From Candidatus Neomarinimicrobiota bacterium (GTDB lineage Bacteria; Fidelibacterota; Marinisomatia; Marinisomatales; TCS55): DNA of 32,254 nucleotides. How positions within the stretch are numbered: position 1 is the first letter of the stretch; every line of letters starts with the position of its first letter. Below, piece by piece: positions 2,989 to 13,927 of this stretch. Position numbers and translations under genes: made by a program. The DNA is taken from assembly GCA_018651745.1 (NCBI GenBank), contig JABIDL010000025.1, forward strand, positions 1 to 32,254, given 5' to 3'. The notes beneath the pieces are model-generated. The model had not been told where the DNA came from. It ran no database searches and saw only the letters and a list, made by a program, of their open reading frames with translations.

Positions 2989-3387
2989 ATGCGTTACAGC
3001 ACCCAAAGAGAAACTATTTATCAAATCGTAAAAGATGCCCAATGCCATCCATCGGCAGACTGGGTATTTGATCGTGCAAAAGTGATTATTCCAAATATAA
3101 GTTTAGCAACGGTTTACCGAAATCTCGGACTATTGAAAAGCCGTGGAAATATTCGATCTTTTACTATAAAGGGTATCGTACGGTACGACGGCAATATTAA
3201 AGCACATTCCCATTTTATGTGTCGTGAATGTGACTTAATGATAGATATGCTACCGGGTAATCTGAAAAGTGTAATACAAAAAGGATTACCAAAATATTTT
3301 AAAGCAGAGTCGGTTGATCTTAAAATATCGGGACTTTGTAAAACCTGTCAAAACAAACAGAATACAAAAGAGGTAATAACATGTTAG
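2989..3387 (+). CDS. perR: Fur-family peroxide-sensing repressor, PerR type
   Basis: A 132-residue Fur-family protein. The winged-helix recognition region is ISLATVYRNLGLL (37-49). Two CxxC pairs, C78/C81 and C117/C120, form the structural zinc site. The residues matching the Bacillus PerR regulatory metal site are all present: H20, D67, H73, H75 and D86 (equivalent to PerR H37, D85, H91, H93 and D104). An Asp rather than Glu at the last position favours a peroxide sensor over an iron sensor, and the peroxiredoxin gene overlapping its 3' end fits that role. There is a perfect palindromic operator upstream. No Shine-Dalgarno is visible before the ATG. Confidence 0.88.
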   Translation: MRYSTQRETIYQIVKDAQCHPSADWVFDRAKVIIPNISLATVYRNLGLLKSRGNIRSFTIKGIVRYDGNIKAHSHFMCRECDLMIDMLPGNLKSVIQKGLPKYFKAESVDLKISGLCKTCQNKQNTKEVITC

Positions 3388-4025
3388 TAACAAAAACAGC
3401 TCCGGATTTTAAAGCAACTGCGATAATGCCGGATAATTCATTTCAGGATATCAGCCTTGCTGATTATGAAGGTAAAAAGGTTGTCCTGTTTTTCTATCCT
3501 TTGGATTTTACGTTCGTATGTCCAACAGAAATAATCGCGTTCGATCATCGTTTAGCTGAATTTGAAAAGCGTGGTGTTCAAGTGCTTGGCTGTTCCATCG
3601 ATTCTCATTTCAGCCATTGGGCATGGAAAAATACGGATGTAAATAAAGGTGGTATCGGGAATGTTCAGTATCCGATCATTGCGGATTTAGATAAATCCAT
3701 TGCCCGAGCGTATGATGTGCTTATAGATGCCGAACCTGCGACTGTTCTAACGGATGAAGAAGAATATGATTCTTCGGTTGGCGGCAATATCGCACTTCGT
3801 GGATCATTCTTGATCGACGAAAAAGGGGTGGTGCGACATGCAGTAATTAATGATCTTCCATTGGGCAGAAACATTGATGAAATGCTTCGCATGGTTGATG
3901 CACTTGATTTCCATACGGAACACGGAGAAGTATGTCCGGCCGGATGGACTGAGGGAGAAGATGGAATGAAAGATACAGCTGAGGGTGTTGCCGGTTACCT
4001 AACCGAAAACGCTGACGAACTGTAA
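3381..4025 (+). CDS. Typical 2-Cys peroxiredoxin (AhpC/Prx1 type)
   Basis: A thiol peroxidase that reduces hydrogen peroxide and organic hydroperoxides in the cytoplasm. The peroxidatic Cys47 is in FTFVCPTE and the resolving Cys185 in EVCPAGW; Arg140 (ALRG) belongs to the active site. The length, 214 residues, is longer than usual because of an acidic insert at about 116-135, between YDVL and the IALRGSFLID strand. GGIG (90-93) is the GGLG-like motif, but the C-terminal YF motif is replaced by YL, so sensitivity to over-oxidation is unclear. The start overlaps perR by seven bases, indicating translational coupling in a PerR-controlled operon. A terminator follows. Confidence 0.95.
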   Translation: MLVTKTAPDFKATAIMPDNSFQDISLADYEGKKVVLFFYPLDFTFVCPTEIIAFDHRLAEFEKRGVQVLGCSIDSHFSHWAWKNTDVNKGGIGNVQYPIIADLDKSIARAYDVLIDAEPATVLTDEEEYDSSVGGNIALRGSFLIDEKGVVRHAVINDLPLGRNIDEMLRMVDALDFHTEHGEVCPAGWTEGEDGMKDTAEGVAGYLTENADEL

Positions 4026-8661: not shown

Positions 8662-9747
8662 CTATTTTAGAAAGATTAATTTTTGGGACTGCGCTTGATT
8701 CCCTGAAATAAGGTGCATGAAATATACACCACTCGGAATTGCAGATGCATTCCATTGAATTTCATGTTGACCTGGTTCTATCGGACCATCCAGCAACACA
8801 TCCACCACGCGACCGTTTATATCAAATATTGTTAATGTAGGGTGACGCATTATTGCGCCCCCTACACCAATATTAAACCGAATCGTGGTGGTTGGATTAA
8901 ACGGATTGGGATAATTCGGGAAGAGAGTAAAATTCCCGGGGGAAATTTTATGATCAGGTTGAATAGAAACCAGTGTTGAATTGATGAGAACAAACCCAAC
9001 CTCAAATCCAGCTGTGGTAAAATCGTTGGAAGTATAAGTTGTATCGTTTCCATCCACATCCGTTAACTGAATGAAAGATATATACCAGTTGCCGAGGGTA
9101 CTCGTATCAGACATAACAATGTCAAAAGCCACCGTATCTAGAGAATCACCTTGAGTAAATGCAACGGTGAACAAAACTTCATCAATATTATTGGAATGAA
9201 GCAATTTTCCAGTTCCCGAATTGAGTCCGCTGCCAGCATCGCTTGCGATAAGAGTGATCGAAACAGAATCAGGTCCGTTTATTAAATCAAGTGTATCTTG
9301 AGCAATGGTGATGTTTACCAATGTAGGAGGCGTTGAATCTGTTATTTGAGCGGGTTGTGCCAATGCTCCTTCTTCAATCCAGACCCTCATCGTCTCAAGT
9401 TCATTTGCATTGGTTGTAAAATAAGATTGGTTGTTACGGGGCATTCTGTTTCCACCGCAGCTGTAACTGGTTGTACATTTCAAGTACAGGTGTGATGTAT
9501 TTGGATCGCCGGGTTCAATATAGTTTAAATTATTACAACTGCTTGCAACGCCCACTATATTGCTATACACAGTGGTTGCGTCGCTTCCTATCGTGAGCCC
9601 TCCGGAACTTCCGCCCGATCCGTGGCAATATCCGCTCAGGCATCCTGCAGAAGAAAAAATTGGATATACTTCTGTTGTATAATCCACATTAGACTGTGCA
9701 GTGCACAATACAAGTGAGAAGAGTAATGCTGATAGCGTTTTTTTCAT
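8662..9747 (-). CDS. Secreted cytochrome c-like protein with Por/T9SS sorting tail
   Basis: A 361-residue exported protein. After a signal peptide (about 1-18) comes a domain like the planctomycete-type cytochrome c family: YPIFSSAGC, EPGDPNTSHLYLK (78-90), RMP with Met102 as a possible axial ligand, and ELETMRVWIEEGA (116-128). The heme-type motif is unusual: C36-LSGY-C41-H42, a CX4CH rather than CxxCH. A beta-sandwich-like middle (about 138-250) and a sorting domain (YPNPFNP, TTIRF, FDINGR, SGVYF, ending LIFLK) follow. The ATG has AAAGGA upstream and lies only 29 bases after the tRNA-Arg 3' end. Heme attachment is inferred, not shown. Confidence 0.8.
   Translation of the reverse strand: MKKTLSALLFSLVLCTAQSNVDYTTEVYPIFSSAGCLSGYCHGSGGSSGGLTIGSDATTVYSNIVGVASSCNNLNYIEPGDPNTSHLYLKCTTSYSCGGNRMPRNNQSYFTTNANELETMRVWIEEGALAQPAQITDSTPPTLVNITIAQDTLDLINGPDSVSITLIASDAGSGLNSGTGKLLHSNNIDEVLFTVAFTQGDSLDTVAFDIVMSDTSTLGNWYISFIQLTDVDGNDTTYTSNDFTTAGFEVGFVLINSTLVSIQPDHKISPGNFTLFPNYPNPFNPTTTIRFNIGVGGAIMRHPTLTIFDINGRVVDVLLDGPIEPGQHEIQWNASAIPSGVYFMHLISGNQAQSQKLIFLK
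8836..8866. repeat. Imperfect palindromic element inside the second sorting-domain coding sequence
   Basis: TGTAGGG (8836-8842) pairs with CCCTACA (8860-8866), and CGCA (8846-8849) pairs with TGCG (8854-8857) around a TTAT loop. On the coding strand it is read in frame as VGGAIMRHPT, between TTIRF and LTIFDINGR, the same position as the 30-bp palindrome in the neighbouring gene. Confidence 0.75.
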
Positions 9748-9776
9748 TGTACTGATCCTTTTAGGTATTCCTATTG

Positions 9777-9850
9777 TACCCCGGACAGGATTCGAACCTG
9801 TGACCCTCTGCTTAGAAGGCAGATGCTCTATCCAACTGAGCTACCGGGGC
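9777..9850 (-). tRNA. tRNA-Arg (anticodon TCT)
   Basis: The minus strand folds as a complete cloverleaf: acceptor GCCCCGG/CCGGGGT, D-arm TAGCTCAGTTGGATAGAGC, anticodon stem TCTGC/GCAGA with loop CTTCTAA (anticodon TCT, reading AGA), variable loop GGGTC, and T-arm ACAGG-TTCGAAT-CCTGT. The discriminator is A. The first pair is G1-U72, a wobble, and the CCA end is not encoded. Confidence 0.97.
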
Positions 9851-10124: not shown

Positions 10125-10352
10125 ATGGCTGAAGTTGTTGCACGTACCGGAGTTTCCAAAGACAAAGGATATCTATACTATCTTGGCAAAGACGGAAACG
10201 TCTGGAGATCTAAGATGGCCCGCGCAGGTAAAGGCGGTGGCAATGCAGAAAAAGTAGCAGATGCTGGCGTTACACGGGAATCAGGGTTCCTTTATTTCAT
10301 CGATAAAGGTGGAAATGTGTCTCGTGCCCTTATGGCAAGAGGCCGTAAATAA
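10125..10352 (+). CDS. Small basic protein built of two 33-residue repeats, unknown function
   Basis: A 75-residue soluble protein without signal peptide or cysteine. Residues 4-36 and 43-75 are two copies of one unit, identical at 16 of 33 positions: V-A--GV----G(Y/F)LY---K-GNV-R--MAR--K. The GYLYYLGKDGNVWR and GFLYFIDKGGNVSR parts look like beta-hairpins. The protein is basic (15 Lys/Arg against 7 Asp/Glu), so nucleic-acid binding is possible but unproven. It is a stand-alone transcription unit with its own probable promoter, a near-ideal Shine-Dalgarno and a strong terminator, as expected for an abundant protein. I do not know a function. Confidence 0.88.
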   Translation: MAEVVARTGVSKDKGYLYYLGKDGNVWRSKMARAGKGGGNAEKVADAGVTRESGFLYFIDKGGNVSRALMARGRK

Positions 10353-10370
10353 GGTACCACGATACATAAT

Positions 10371-10405
10371 AAAAAAAAGGCTCCGGTGACGGAGCCTTTT
10401 TTTTT
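10371..10405 (+). terminator. Strong Rho-independent terminator
   Basis: The stem GGCTCCG/CGGAGCC with loop GTGA (10379-10396) is flanked by eight A on the left and nine T on the right, so the hairpin can be extended by A-T pairs. It lies 19 bases after the stop of the 75-residue protein gene and only 38 bases before the next start codon. Confidence 0.93.
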
Positions 10406-10443: not shown

Positions 10444-11574
10444 ATGAAACCGAATATGCAATGCATCCAATCTTTCAAAATCTTTTTTCTGGGAATTTTG
10501 TTATTGTCTTCCGCTAGATCAATTCCTCGATATGCTCTGATGAACGGGGAAAGTTGTAACCTTTGTCACATCAATCCATCCGGAAGTGGCTTACGCTCTG
10601 AATATGGCATTTCATTGGTTTCCGGAGAAGAACTCCCTTTCAAACCTGAAAAAGTCAGTTATACCGGCATGATTTCTGAACACCTTCAGTTGGGTGGAGA
10701 TGTGCGGTTCCAGAGGATAGTTGCTCAACTCGATACAACCGGAGTTCAAACAGCGGGATTCCCAATGCAGGCAGATATTTATGGTTCAGTAAAACCCACG
10801 AAGAAAATAGATATTCTTTGGAAGATTGACCTTCTCAATTATAATCACCACGTGTGGACACAATTGAGAATATTGCCGAACGGAGGAATGTTTCGTATTG
10901 GGAAAACCATGCCCTCTTACGGTTTGCGGATCCCAGATCATACGGCATTTATTAGAGGTGGGAATATGAGTCTTACTCACGAAGGATTAGTTAAAGAAGG
11001 TCTGCCATTTAATTCGAGATTAATTGCCCCATTTACTTTCGAAACTGCTATTTATTTGGGGAACAGTTATATAACCGTCGGAATTTCAAATGCATTTTTA
11101 TCTTCTACAAACTGGGGAATGACGTTTGTCAGAAATCTCAGGGACCATGCCTTATTTGCCAGGATGGAATATATTGGTACCTTTCGATCCCTAAAATTCA
11201 TCGGTGGAAGTTCGGTTATCCACGAGAATGATTTAAATATCCGCGGGGTATTTGGTGGTCTATCTTTAGGATCTGTTCAATGGTTAGTCGAAACAGATTG
11301 GGCGAGGAATTGGGCAGGAGAAAATGTCTCGTTGGCAACATATCATAATATGAACTACGAATTAACCCAAGGTCTTGATGTCGGATTTACATTTGAAACC
11401 TTTGACGTGGATGTGGATTCCTCCGGTCAATCCATTCAAAGGATGTCCTTCGGTTTTGATTTTATCCCATTCCCGTTTATACAGATTAAAGCACATATGA
11501 GGATGAATGAAACTATCAACCCGAATACCAAAGCAGAACCGGAGTATTTACTTCAACTTCACACATGGTTTTAG
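10444..11574 (+). CDS. Outer-membrane beta-barrel protein with N-terminal CxxCH motif
   Basis: A 376-residue protein with a signal peptide (about 1-25), then one heme c-type motif, C38-NL-C41-H42, in ESCNLCHINPSGSGLRSEYG (36-55). The CxxCHxNPxGxGxRxxxG pattern occurs at the start of many FCB-group barrel proteins. The rest is alternating polar/hydrophobic strands ending in an aromatic residue (HTWF), as in outer-membrane barrels. It is first of four tightly spaced genes, followed after 10 bases by a diheme cytochrome. A porin that carries or contacts a heme is inferred; heme attachment is not demonstrated. AGGAA precedes the ATG. Confidence 0.78.
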   Translation: MKPNMQCIQSFKIFFLGILLLSSARSIPRYALMNGESCNLCHINPSGSGLRSEYGISLVSGEELPFKPEKVSYTGMISEHLQLGGDVRFQRIVAQLDTTGVQTAGFPMQADIYGSVKPTKKIDILWKIDLLNYNHHVWTQLRILPNGGMFRIGKTMPSYGLRIPDHTAFIRGGNMSLTHEGLVKEGLPFNSRLIAPFTFETAIYLGNSYITVGISNAFLSSTNWGMTFVRNLRDHALFARMEYIGTFRSLKFIGGSSVIHENDLNIRGVFGGLSLGSVQWLVETDWARNWAGENVSLATYHNMNYELTQGLDVGFTFETFDVDVDSSGQSIQRMSFGFDFIPFPFIQIKAHMRMNETINPNTKAEPEYLLQLHTWF

Positions 11575-11584
11575 GAGAATATCT

Positions 11585-11923
11585 ATGAAAAATATATTAT
11601 TACTTATTATTGGTTCGTTTTTGATTGCACAGGATGTACCAAAGTCAGAATTGGAAAATGTGATAGTTCTTCCATTCACCAAAAAGCGTGAAATATTTAA
11701 GTACATGAAAACGGTAGTTGCCCCGGGACTTGGGGTTAAATGTAATTTTTGTCACGATCCGAACGACTATGCAAGCGATTCGAAAAAAGAAAAAATGATT
11801 GCTAGGGATATGATGCTAATGGTGCAGGGGGTCAATAAAAATACGATGAAAAAAATCGGTCATGATGATATATCATGTTGGATTTGTCATAGAGGAAACA
11901 CCGAGCCAGAGCATTATAAATGA
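11585..11923 (+). CDS. Diheme cytochrome c, photosynthetic reaction-centre cytochrome subunit-like
   Basis: A 112-residue periplasmic cytochrome. After a short signal peptide (1-15) come two heme-binding sites, C53NFC56H57 and C98WIC101H102, separated by an ARDMMLMVQGVN helix (73-84) with candidate Met axial ligands. The pattern KCNFCHD... and CWICHRGNTEP matches the CytC_RC type (PF02276), which is also found in non-phototrophs. I chose the ATG at 11585 over the upstream in-frame ATG at 11507 because it has AGGAGA just upstream, begins a signal peptide and does not overlap the barrel gene. It overlaps the next gene by four bases. Electron partner unknown; the flanking barrel with CxxCH is the obvious candidate. 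Confidence 0.88.
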   Translation: MKNILLLIIGSFLIAQDVPKSELENVIVLPFTKKREIFKYMKTVVAPGLGVKCNFCHDPNDYASDSKKEKMIARDMMLMVQGVNKNTMKKIGHDDISCWICHRGNTEPEHYK

Positions 11924-12627
11924 ATCGGTTTTTGAAAATTTCACCTGCTTTTTTAATCGTGATGTTTTTTTCAGGTTGCGCCTTATTCATTCCGAATCAT
12001 TTTGCGGAAAATGAAATCACATTTGAAAATCCAAACTCACCCGCAAAGCCCCTTCCACGCGGATGGAGTGTGGGTGAAAATCTTATGGCCGAATGGGGTT
12101 CAGGTGTCAATGAAATTCTGGGAAACTTACCCGACACAACATTGGAGGTGGAATATTGGAAAGATGAAATAGATATTGAAACCGGGAAACGGTTGCCGAT
12201 CTTGAAAGCAAGAGTCAGATTTGATTATAAAACACGATTAAATACACAACGCGTGGAGCTACGGTTTGTGAATGTGGATTATATTTACGATATGGATAAA
12301 ATTTCATCCGAACATTATCAACTGGAAAGTGTCACTAAAACGATAGAACTCACTACAACCGGATATCCGAAAATATTGGTTGATGATGTTCTAAGGAAAA
12401 AAGTCCTAATGGTGTACGGAACTCCTCAATCGTTTAATGGGTTGTCCCATGCTTACACCGATGAGAACACAATGATGAAGGTTCGTGTGTTAGATAACAG
12501 TCATTTAATGATTACGTTGAACGGATACCAAATATCAAATGCGCTACAGGATGCGCTTTATAAGGTGTATTCTGAAGATGGAATTGACCTTAAAAAGGAA
12601 CAGATTCTGCAAGAGTTTGAACTCTAA
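11920..12627 (+). CDS. Outer-membrane-type lipoprotein of unknown function
   Basis: A 235-residue lipoprotein: hydrophobic residues 8-18 followed by the lipobox FSGC with Cys20. The mature part is mostly predicted beta strand with no motif I recognise and no cysteine pairs for heme. Its ATG overlaps the cytochrome stop codon (ATGA), so it is translationally coupled to it, and an Omp85 gene follows. A role in assembling or anchoring the neighbouring envelope proteins is an inference from position only. Confidence 0.78.
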   Translation: MNRFLKISPAFLIVMFFSGCALFIPNHFAENEITFENPNSPAKPLPRGWSVGENLMAEWGSGVNEILGNLPDTTLEVEYWKDEIDIETGKRLPILKARVRFDYKTRLNTQRVELRFVNVDYIYDMDKISSEHYQLESVTKTIELTTTGYPKILVDDVLRKKVLMVYGTPQSFNGLSHAYTDENTMMKVRVLDNSHLMITLNGYQISNALQDALYKVYSEDGIDLKKEQILQEFEL

Positions 12628-12658
12628 AGAAACTCTATTTTCAAATCATATCCTGGCA

Positions 12659-13927
12659 ATGAACATGTACAAAATTATATTGATAATTGGTCTGATATTA
12701 TCCGGTTTGTGTGCAATTAATCCAGAGGTTTCCGGAATTGATATAACGGGATTAAAAGTGACTAAAGAATTCATCATTAGACGGGAAATTCAGCACCCCG
12801 TGGATGGTTTGTTGGATAGTTTGCTCGCATTGGATGACAGGAACCGAATAGACAATTTGGGCATTTTCGCCTCTGTAGAATGGAAAGCCCATGAACAAGC
12901 AGATGGGTCTGTAAGAATTGAATATAATGTAACTGAATCCTGGCCGAGAATTGTACCAACTCCCTATCCGAATTATGATGAAAAGCTTGGCTGGTCTTAC
13001 GGAATGTTACTGGTTGTCAGAAATTTTCAGGGAAGGAATCAAAATCTTATATTAATTGGGCAAGTCGGCGGAAGGGCATTGTACGGATTCAATTTTAGCG
13101 ATCCGTGGATTACCGGAGATCATGTATCAATGTCTATCAATGCAGGGAATATTTACTATGCGCATTCTTATCTGGATTATGACATTTCCGCATCGTCTAT
13201 TCAAATCAATCTTGGGAGGTATTTTGGCTATAAACATAGAATTTCTGGAGGGTTTGAAGTTGAAAAGAAATCATTTCTGGGGATTGCCGATACATTGAAC
13301 CTTTTTTATTTCGCACCGGAATTTAATTATTCCTATGACACGCGCGATATTTACCTTTCGCCAACCAAAGGATTCCGGATGAATCAACGCTTACGAACTA
13401 TGGTTGATTTTGGGCATGGCGGAAATCGGGCATTTTGGACACAATCATTCAGCTATTATCATTCCATTTTTGGTGGTTCAAAAAATATGGTGGTTGCACT
13501 AAATGCTGCCAGCAGGGTTTCAATCGGGGATAAGAAAAATGTATATCAAGTGTACATTGGAACAAGTTCAACCGTTCGTGGCTGGCGACCTGCTACTAGA
13601 ACAATGTTCAATTCAGGTGATCAATATTATCGGTTTGGTCATCATTGGATTACCTCCAGCCTTGAATTAAGACAAACTGTCATCCCCAAAACGATTACAA
13701 GATGGAAGACAGAATTTGGTTTAGCCGTTGTTGGTTTTCTTGACATTGGCTTTGCTTCAGATGCTATTTCATCCTTGGTGGGTCAACCACCGATGCTAGG
13801 TACTGGGATTGGCATCCGAATAAATTGGCCATGGGTTGGAATGTTTAGATTGGATTATGGTTTGGGCTACCGCGACGGAGAATACATAGAAAATTATTTG
13901 AATTTTTCTACAGGACAGAAGTTTTGA
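12659..13927 (+). CDS. Short Omp85/BamA-family outer-membrane protein with a single POTRA
   Basis: A 422-residue protein (from the ATG at 12659; the ATG at 12665 is equally possible, neither has a good Shine-Dalgarno). A signal peptide (about 1-20) is followed by one POTRA-like domain (about 22-95: DITGLKVTKEFIIRREI, then LGIFASVEW) and a C-terminal surface-antigen barrel. The barrel carries the family lid-loop motif VRGW (in SSTVRGWRP) and ends in a phenylalanine. BamA has five POTRAs, so this is a reduced member of unknown client. An in-frame extension upstream to 12539 overlaps the lipoprotein gene and is rejected. Its stop directly abuts that of plsY on the other strand. Confidence 0.87.
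   Translation: MNMYKIILIIGLILSGLCAINPEVSGIDITGLKVTKEFIIRREIQHPVDGLLDSLLALDDRNRIDNLGIFASVEWKAHEQADGSVRIEYNVTESWPRIVPTPYPNYDEKLGWSYGMLLVVRNFQGRNQNLILIGQVGGRALYGFNFSDPWITGDHVSMSINAGNIYYAHSYLDYDISASSIQINLGRYFGYKHRISGGFEVEKKSFLGIADTLNLFYFAPEFNYSYDTRDIYLSPTKGFRMNQRLRTMVDFGHGGNRAFWTQSFSYYHSIFGGSKNMVVALNAASRVSIGDKKNVYQVYIGTSSTVRGWRPATRTMFNSGDQYYRFGHHWITSSLELRQTVIPKTITRWKTEFGLAVVGFLDIGFASDAISSLVGQPPMLGTGIGIRINWPWVGMFRLDYGLGYRDGEYIENYLNFSTGQKF

Follow-up and report, generated by a model that had tools for sequence, protein, structure and literature searches.

The four genes analyzed here comprise two units: g1–g2, a redox pair, and g3–g4, a neighboring lipoprotein/Omp85 pair that is independent of g1 and more widespread. 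They lie in a stretch of 32,254 nucleotides from a Candidatus Neomarinimicrobiota bacterium (contig JABIDL010000025.1; hereafter, the window). With somewhat better than even confidence, we read g1 as a heme porin conduit built like Cyc2, through which electrons flow inward via g2, with an outer monoheme partner and with g3–g4 standing apart. The most likely role of g1 is that of an outer-membrane conduit passing electrons inward to the terminal oxidases, with substrate and direction putative. The features of the locus are as follows.

8662-9747, minus strand: probable surface cytochrome gene, divergent to g1, with a monoheme domain and a T9SS tail
9776-9850, minus strand: tRNA-Arg (tct), separating the genes of the T9SS cytochrome and the 75-aa protein
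10125-10352, plus strand: conserved 75-aa protein gene, the 5' marker of the locus, followed by a terminator-like stem
10371-10404, listed on the minus strand: 15-pair stem with T runs, bidirectional-looking, between the 75-aa gene and g1
10444-11574, plus strand: g1, 376 aa, predicted heme porin
10555-10569, plus strand: CxxCH of g1 (residues 38-42), directly after the signal peptide, invariant
10933-10965, plus strand: (D/P)DHTxFIRGGN motif of g1, in the long segment between strands 5 and 6, at the position of porin loop L3
11560-11562, plus strand: His373 of g1, invariant, near the C-terminal end of strand 16
11585-11923, plus strand: g2, 112 aa, two CxxCH motifs
11920-12627, plus strand: g3, 235 aa, lipobox Cys20
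12659-13927, plus strand: g4, 422 aa, Omp85

Locus layout and the independence of g3–g4

The spacers g1/g2, g2/g3, and g3/g4 measure 10, -4, and 31 bases, as the original prediction had stated. Across the family, the block runs in the order 75-aa gene, upstream cytochrome, g1, g2, g3, g4, and its middle genes are missing to a varying extent; at G005, for example, only the 75-aa gene and g3–g4 are present. The 75-aa protein consists of two similar halves, and its gene is retained at the locus in many relatives even without the redox genes; it is probably outside the redox unit. Site counts in the stem region (10371-10404) were no higher than in shuffled sequences. Purifying selection is apparent in all tested genes, with dN/dS values of about 0.04–0.18 where computable, dS being saturated or undefined for several pairs. 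Elsewhere in the window (2989-4025), a peroxiredoxin gene adjoins a Fur-family regulator.

The g4 product is an Omp85 protein (PF01103: E 4.5e-23, 82.7 bits, cut-off 24), one of six Omp85 matches in the source genome, and has a single POTRA-like stretch that falls just under the Pfam cut-off (E 7e-4, 20.7 bits, cut-off 21.3). A PDB search with the g3 fold gave no match at E <= 0.001. The original prediction proposed that all four genes form one assembly or redox module, with an Omp85 dedicated to the barrel so that g4 would fold or insert g1. Their tight spacing speaks for this idea, as does the closeness of g4 to g1 (within three genes) in 21 of 28 loci. However, 19 relatives have g3 and g4 side by side (gaps of 7–148 bases): G046 carries g1 elsewhere, G042 shows a weak g1 match, and the other 17 have no match; nine loci with a g3 gene were read. 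Because 17 of these 19 relatives lack g1, the g4 Omp85 is not dedicated to the g1 barrel. Moreover, g4 occurs in 53 of 61 relatives and g1 in 28 of 61, and in several genomes the two lie far apart or on separate contigs. The module with a dedicated Omp85 was rejected on this independence of g3–g4, and we regard any reading of the four genes as one module as very improbable. The part of the prediction that placed g1 and g2 together stands, whereas g3 and g4 drop out; the T9SS-tailed cytochrome on the minus strand had not been connected to the module. In other families, a gene of about 460 aa between g2 and g4 was considered as a long form of g3 and rejected, its alignment reading as an M20-type peptidase.

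The predicted heme porin and its likeness to Cyc2

Based on its computed architecture, g1 is a predicted outer-membrane 16-stranded porin with an N-terminal monoheme domain, an arrangement like that of Cyc2. The AlphaFold2 model (77-row alignment; mean pLDDT 88.9, pTM 0.85) shows a short helical domain at the N-terminus followed by 16 strands, and the closest PDB folds found by Foldseek are general porins, with OprP at rank 2. The CxxCH motif, which follows a signal peptide assigned by reading the sequence, is kept in 31/31 sequences of the alignment for the window's phylum and in all 77 of the wider relatives; a barrel with a conserved heme motif, as originally proposed, is supported. The DHT and RGG parts of the L3-position motif are likewise found in all 77 relatives. 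His373 is a candidate distal heme ligand, as are Met108 and His166.

Cyc2, a fused cytochrome-porin of iron oxidation for which OprP served as the published template (PMC8406198), is described by Keffer et al. (PMC8406198) as defined by an AXPXFAR[Q/K][T/Y] motif together with a PXL motif. It shares with g1 a signal peptide, a single N-terminal CxxCH, and a 16-stranded porin, and by this likeness the g1 heme is expected at the periplasmic mouth. The comparison was made with 17 Cyc2-like proteins collected by the Cyc2 motif. The start of that motif, AxPx[FY]A, occurs at an equal distance from the first Cys in 43 of the 77 g1 relatives, and the heme segment AxPxFA......C..CH aligns between g1 and the Cyc2-like proteins with an E-value of 4e-10, compared to 3e-5 for a CxxCH-only control. 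At 376 aa, g1 also satisfies the FeGenie length rule for Cyc2 (at least 365 residues, as given in PMC8406198). In contrast, the full AXPXFAR[Q/K][T/Y] motif was found in none of the 77 relatives, nor was the PXL that follows CXXCH by four residues in Cyc2, the place of which is taken by P.G...R in 73 of 77. The DHT/RGG motif and the C-terminal His of g1 are missing from all 17 Cyc2-like proteins, and g1, unlike Cyc2, has linked partner cytochromes. Sequence homology of the barrels was not detectable between g1 and the motif-gathered set (hhalign E 0.029, probability 1.7%). Cyc2 proper was consequently rejected as an identity for g1 on the lack of the full motif and PXL; since the heme segment aligns and the barrel, full motif, and PXL fail, g1 is said to work like Cyc2 and not to be Cyc2. 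The original statement that the locus has none of the known parts compared it to Mtr and Omc proteins alone, thereby overlooking both Cyc2, the closest known design, and the NF033196/PufC relationship of g2.

Some further occurrences of the family were recorded. Two Bacteroidetes MAGs carry a Cyc2-like gene (L150, 1-1203; L157, 2-1144) at a distance of about 7 kb from a g1 homolog, and the Melioribacter genome G214 contains both a Cyc2-like gene and a g1 homolog. In Ignavibacteria, the genes flanking g1 resemble RseP and Dxr on reading the sequences alone. One contig of a record titled Gammaproteobacteria (L123) looks like Neomarinimicrobiota, with the order g1-g2-peptidase-g4, and is a probable contamination.

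Proposed partner cytochromes on both sides of the porin

Judged from its sequence, g2 is a secreted diheme cytochrome of a half-PufC type, with matches to PF02276 (E 6e-16) and to NF033196 c_type_nonphoto (78.7 bits, above the cut-off of 70). M41 and M76 of g2 align with M74 and M110 of PufC, which we take to be the axial ligands of PufC hemes 1 and 2. PufC has four hemes, whereas g2 has two in 112 aa, and no photosynthetic reaction center context was seen. Linkage to g1 is tight: the 26 relatives that have a strong g1 all have g2 as well, and g2 lies directly downstream of g1 in 27 of 30 Neomarinimicrobiota loci. The predicted pairing of a conserved heme barrel with a conserved diheme protein is supported, in both the co-occurrence of g1 with g2 and the conservation of the barrel CxxCH, and of the proposed four-gene order the g1–g2 link held while g3–g4 proved separable. 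At the G005, G008, G009, G010, G016, G021, and G029 loci, g1 was not found by ORF profile searches and tblastn gave no match. Among these, G008 retains the upstream cytochrome and g2, and G016, G021, and G029 retain g2; in G009, g2 is short and has one heme, and what remains of it in G010 contains stops. G035, of which a 1,106-base piece was read, is uninformative. Because some genomes keep g2 without g1, g2 also has a role apart from g1.

Of the 28 Neomarinimicrobiota loci in which the upstream sequence could be read, 21 carry a gene for a PSCyt1-like monoheme protein directly 5' of g1. Its product appears by eye to be a lipoprotein, and a simple lipobox pattern matched part of the set. The upstream lipoproteins of several relatives match PSCyt1 (PF07635) and retain its MP and W; the heme-motif spacing within one upstream-cytochrome group ranges from CxxCH to CX6CH. 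In the window's genus, this domain sits on a T9SS-tailed protein (E 4e-17 to 2e-18 with our own domain profile). The N-terminal domain of the protein encoded at 8662-9747 (minus strand) matches the upstream-cytochrome profile with an E-value of 4.3e-17 and, when aligned with the upstream cytochromes, keeps CX4CH, MP, and W; it differs from PSCyt1 lipoproteins in its T9SS tail and in its score, a Pfam search of the heme domain giving no cytochrome match and not reaching the PSCyt1 cut-off. Its C-terminus is a T9SS type A sorting domain (TIGR04183: 41.1 bits, cut-off 23), one of 52 T9SS tails in the source genome, which predicts delivery of the product to the surface. We consider this protein the likely outer redox partner of g1. 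As the protein is divergent and the tRNA and 75-aa genes intervene, the case for the proposed partnership is one of homology and position.

The gene before g1 in Ignavibacteria encodes a T9SS-tailed CxxCH protein of another kind (eight loci by a strict pattern), and nearly all heme stretches of this protein match the Neomarinimicrobiota g1 profile with E-values of 1e-4 to 1e-8 (L140: 0.002). For these partner comparisons, the upstream-cytochrome profile had been cleaned of T9SS tails and the g1 profile of Ignavibacteria T9SS heme proteins.

A putative inward electron route and its alternatives

In the proposed mechanism, the small N-terminal domain of g1 would place one c-type heme at the periplasmic mouth of the 16-stranded barrel, where this heme would receive electrons from a donor that is extracellular or enters the pore. 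As one heme alone cannot span the barrel, either the donor would enter the pore or the outer partner would come close; this monoheme partner would be a lipoprotein in most relatives and a T9SS-delivered surface protein in the window's genus. From g1, electrons may then pass to the secreted diheme g2, to periplasmic carriers, and finally to heme-copper oxidases. COX1 was found in 56 of 63 g1-positive and 76 of 136 g1-negative genomes (Fisher p 2e-6, uncorrected for relatedness, with counts tallied by hand from two tables). The source genome has two COX sets, with COX2 and COX3 genes near the COX1 matches, and two matches to Cytochrom_C_asm (c-type cytochrome assembly), one of them with internal stops.

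The same anatomy could also serve flow in the outward direction, with respiratory electrons passing from g2 via g1 and the surface cytochrome to an acceptor outside the cell, which a surface partner would suit. We consider this unlikely given the association with heme-copper oxidases, the small number of hemes compared to known outward conduits, and the inward operation of the nearest design, Cyc2, as described in PMC8406198. Slightly less probable still is a gated porin that forms no conduit and whose heme serves as a sensor, as a structural plug, or for the redox processing of a compound taken up. The invariant DHTxFIRGG of the L3-position segment points to a substrate or gating site, and in some genomes g2 is kept where g1 is missing, but g1 and g2 are tightly linked and surface heme partners recur. 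Even though heme in g1 is predicted from sequence, we give hardly any credence to an ordinary porin with a heme-free CxxCH (a disulfide or metal site), which is at odds with the retention of CxxCH in 77/77 relatives, with the neighboring heme proteins, and with the heme segment held in common with Cyc2-like proteins.

The inward conduit remains our preferred reading. Like the Mtr, Mto, and Pcc conduits, it would combine an outer-membrane barrel with a secreted cytochrome and a probable surface cytochrome. Those barrels have 26 strands, whereas g1 has a predicted 16 and a heme domain fused to the barrel, and neither the four genes nor the cytochrome partners include a counterpart to the multiheme periplasmic cytochrome of Mtr and Pcc, g2 having two hemes. 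More tentatively, and short of an even chance in our judgment, Neomarinimicrobiota and Ignavibacteria may share a new class of conduit, composed of a single-heme porin, a T9SS-delivered outer cytochrome, and, in Neomarinimicrobiota, a half-PufC inner cytochrome; a literature search that included the Melioribacter paper found no description of the g1 family. If the proposed route is correct, it would give T9SS a role in electron transfer, of which a non-exhaustive literature search turned up no case. The published Cyc2 motif would miss this route (0/77), and the use of external donors would be underestimated. A mostly uncultured, widespread marine phylum would then have a route for electrons across the outer membrane.
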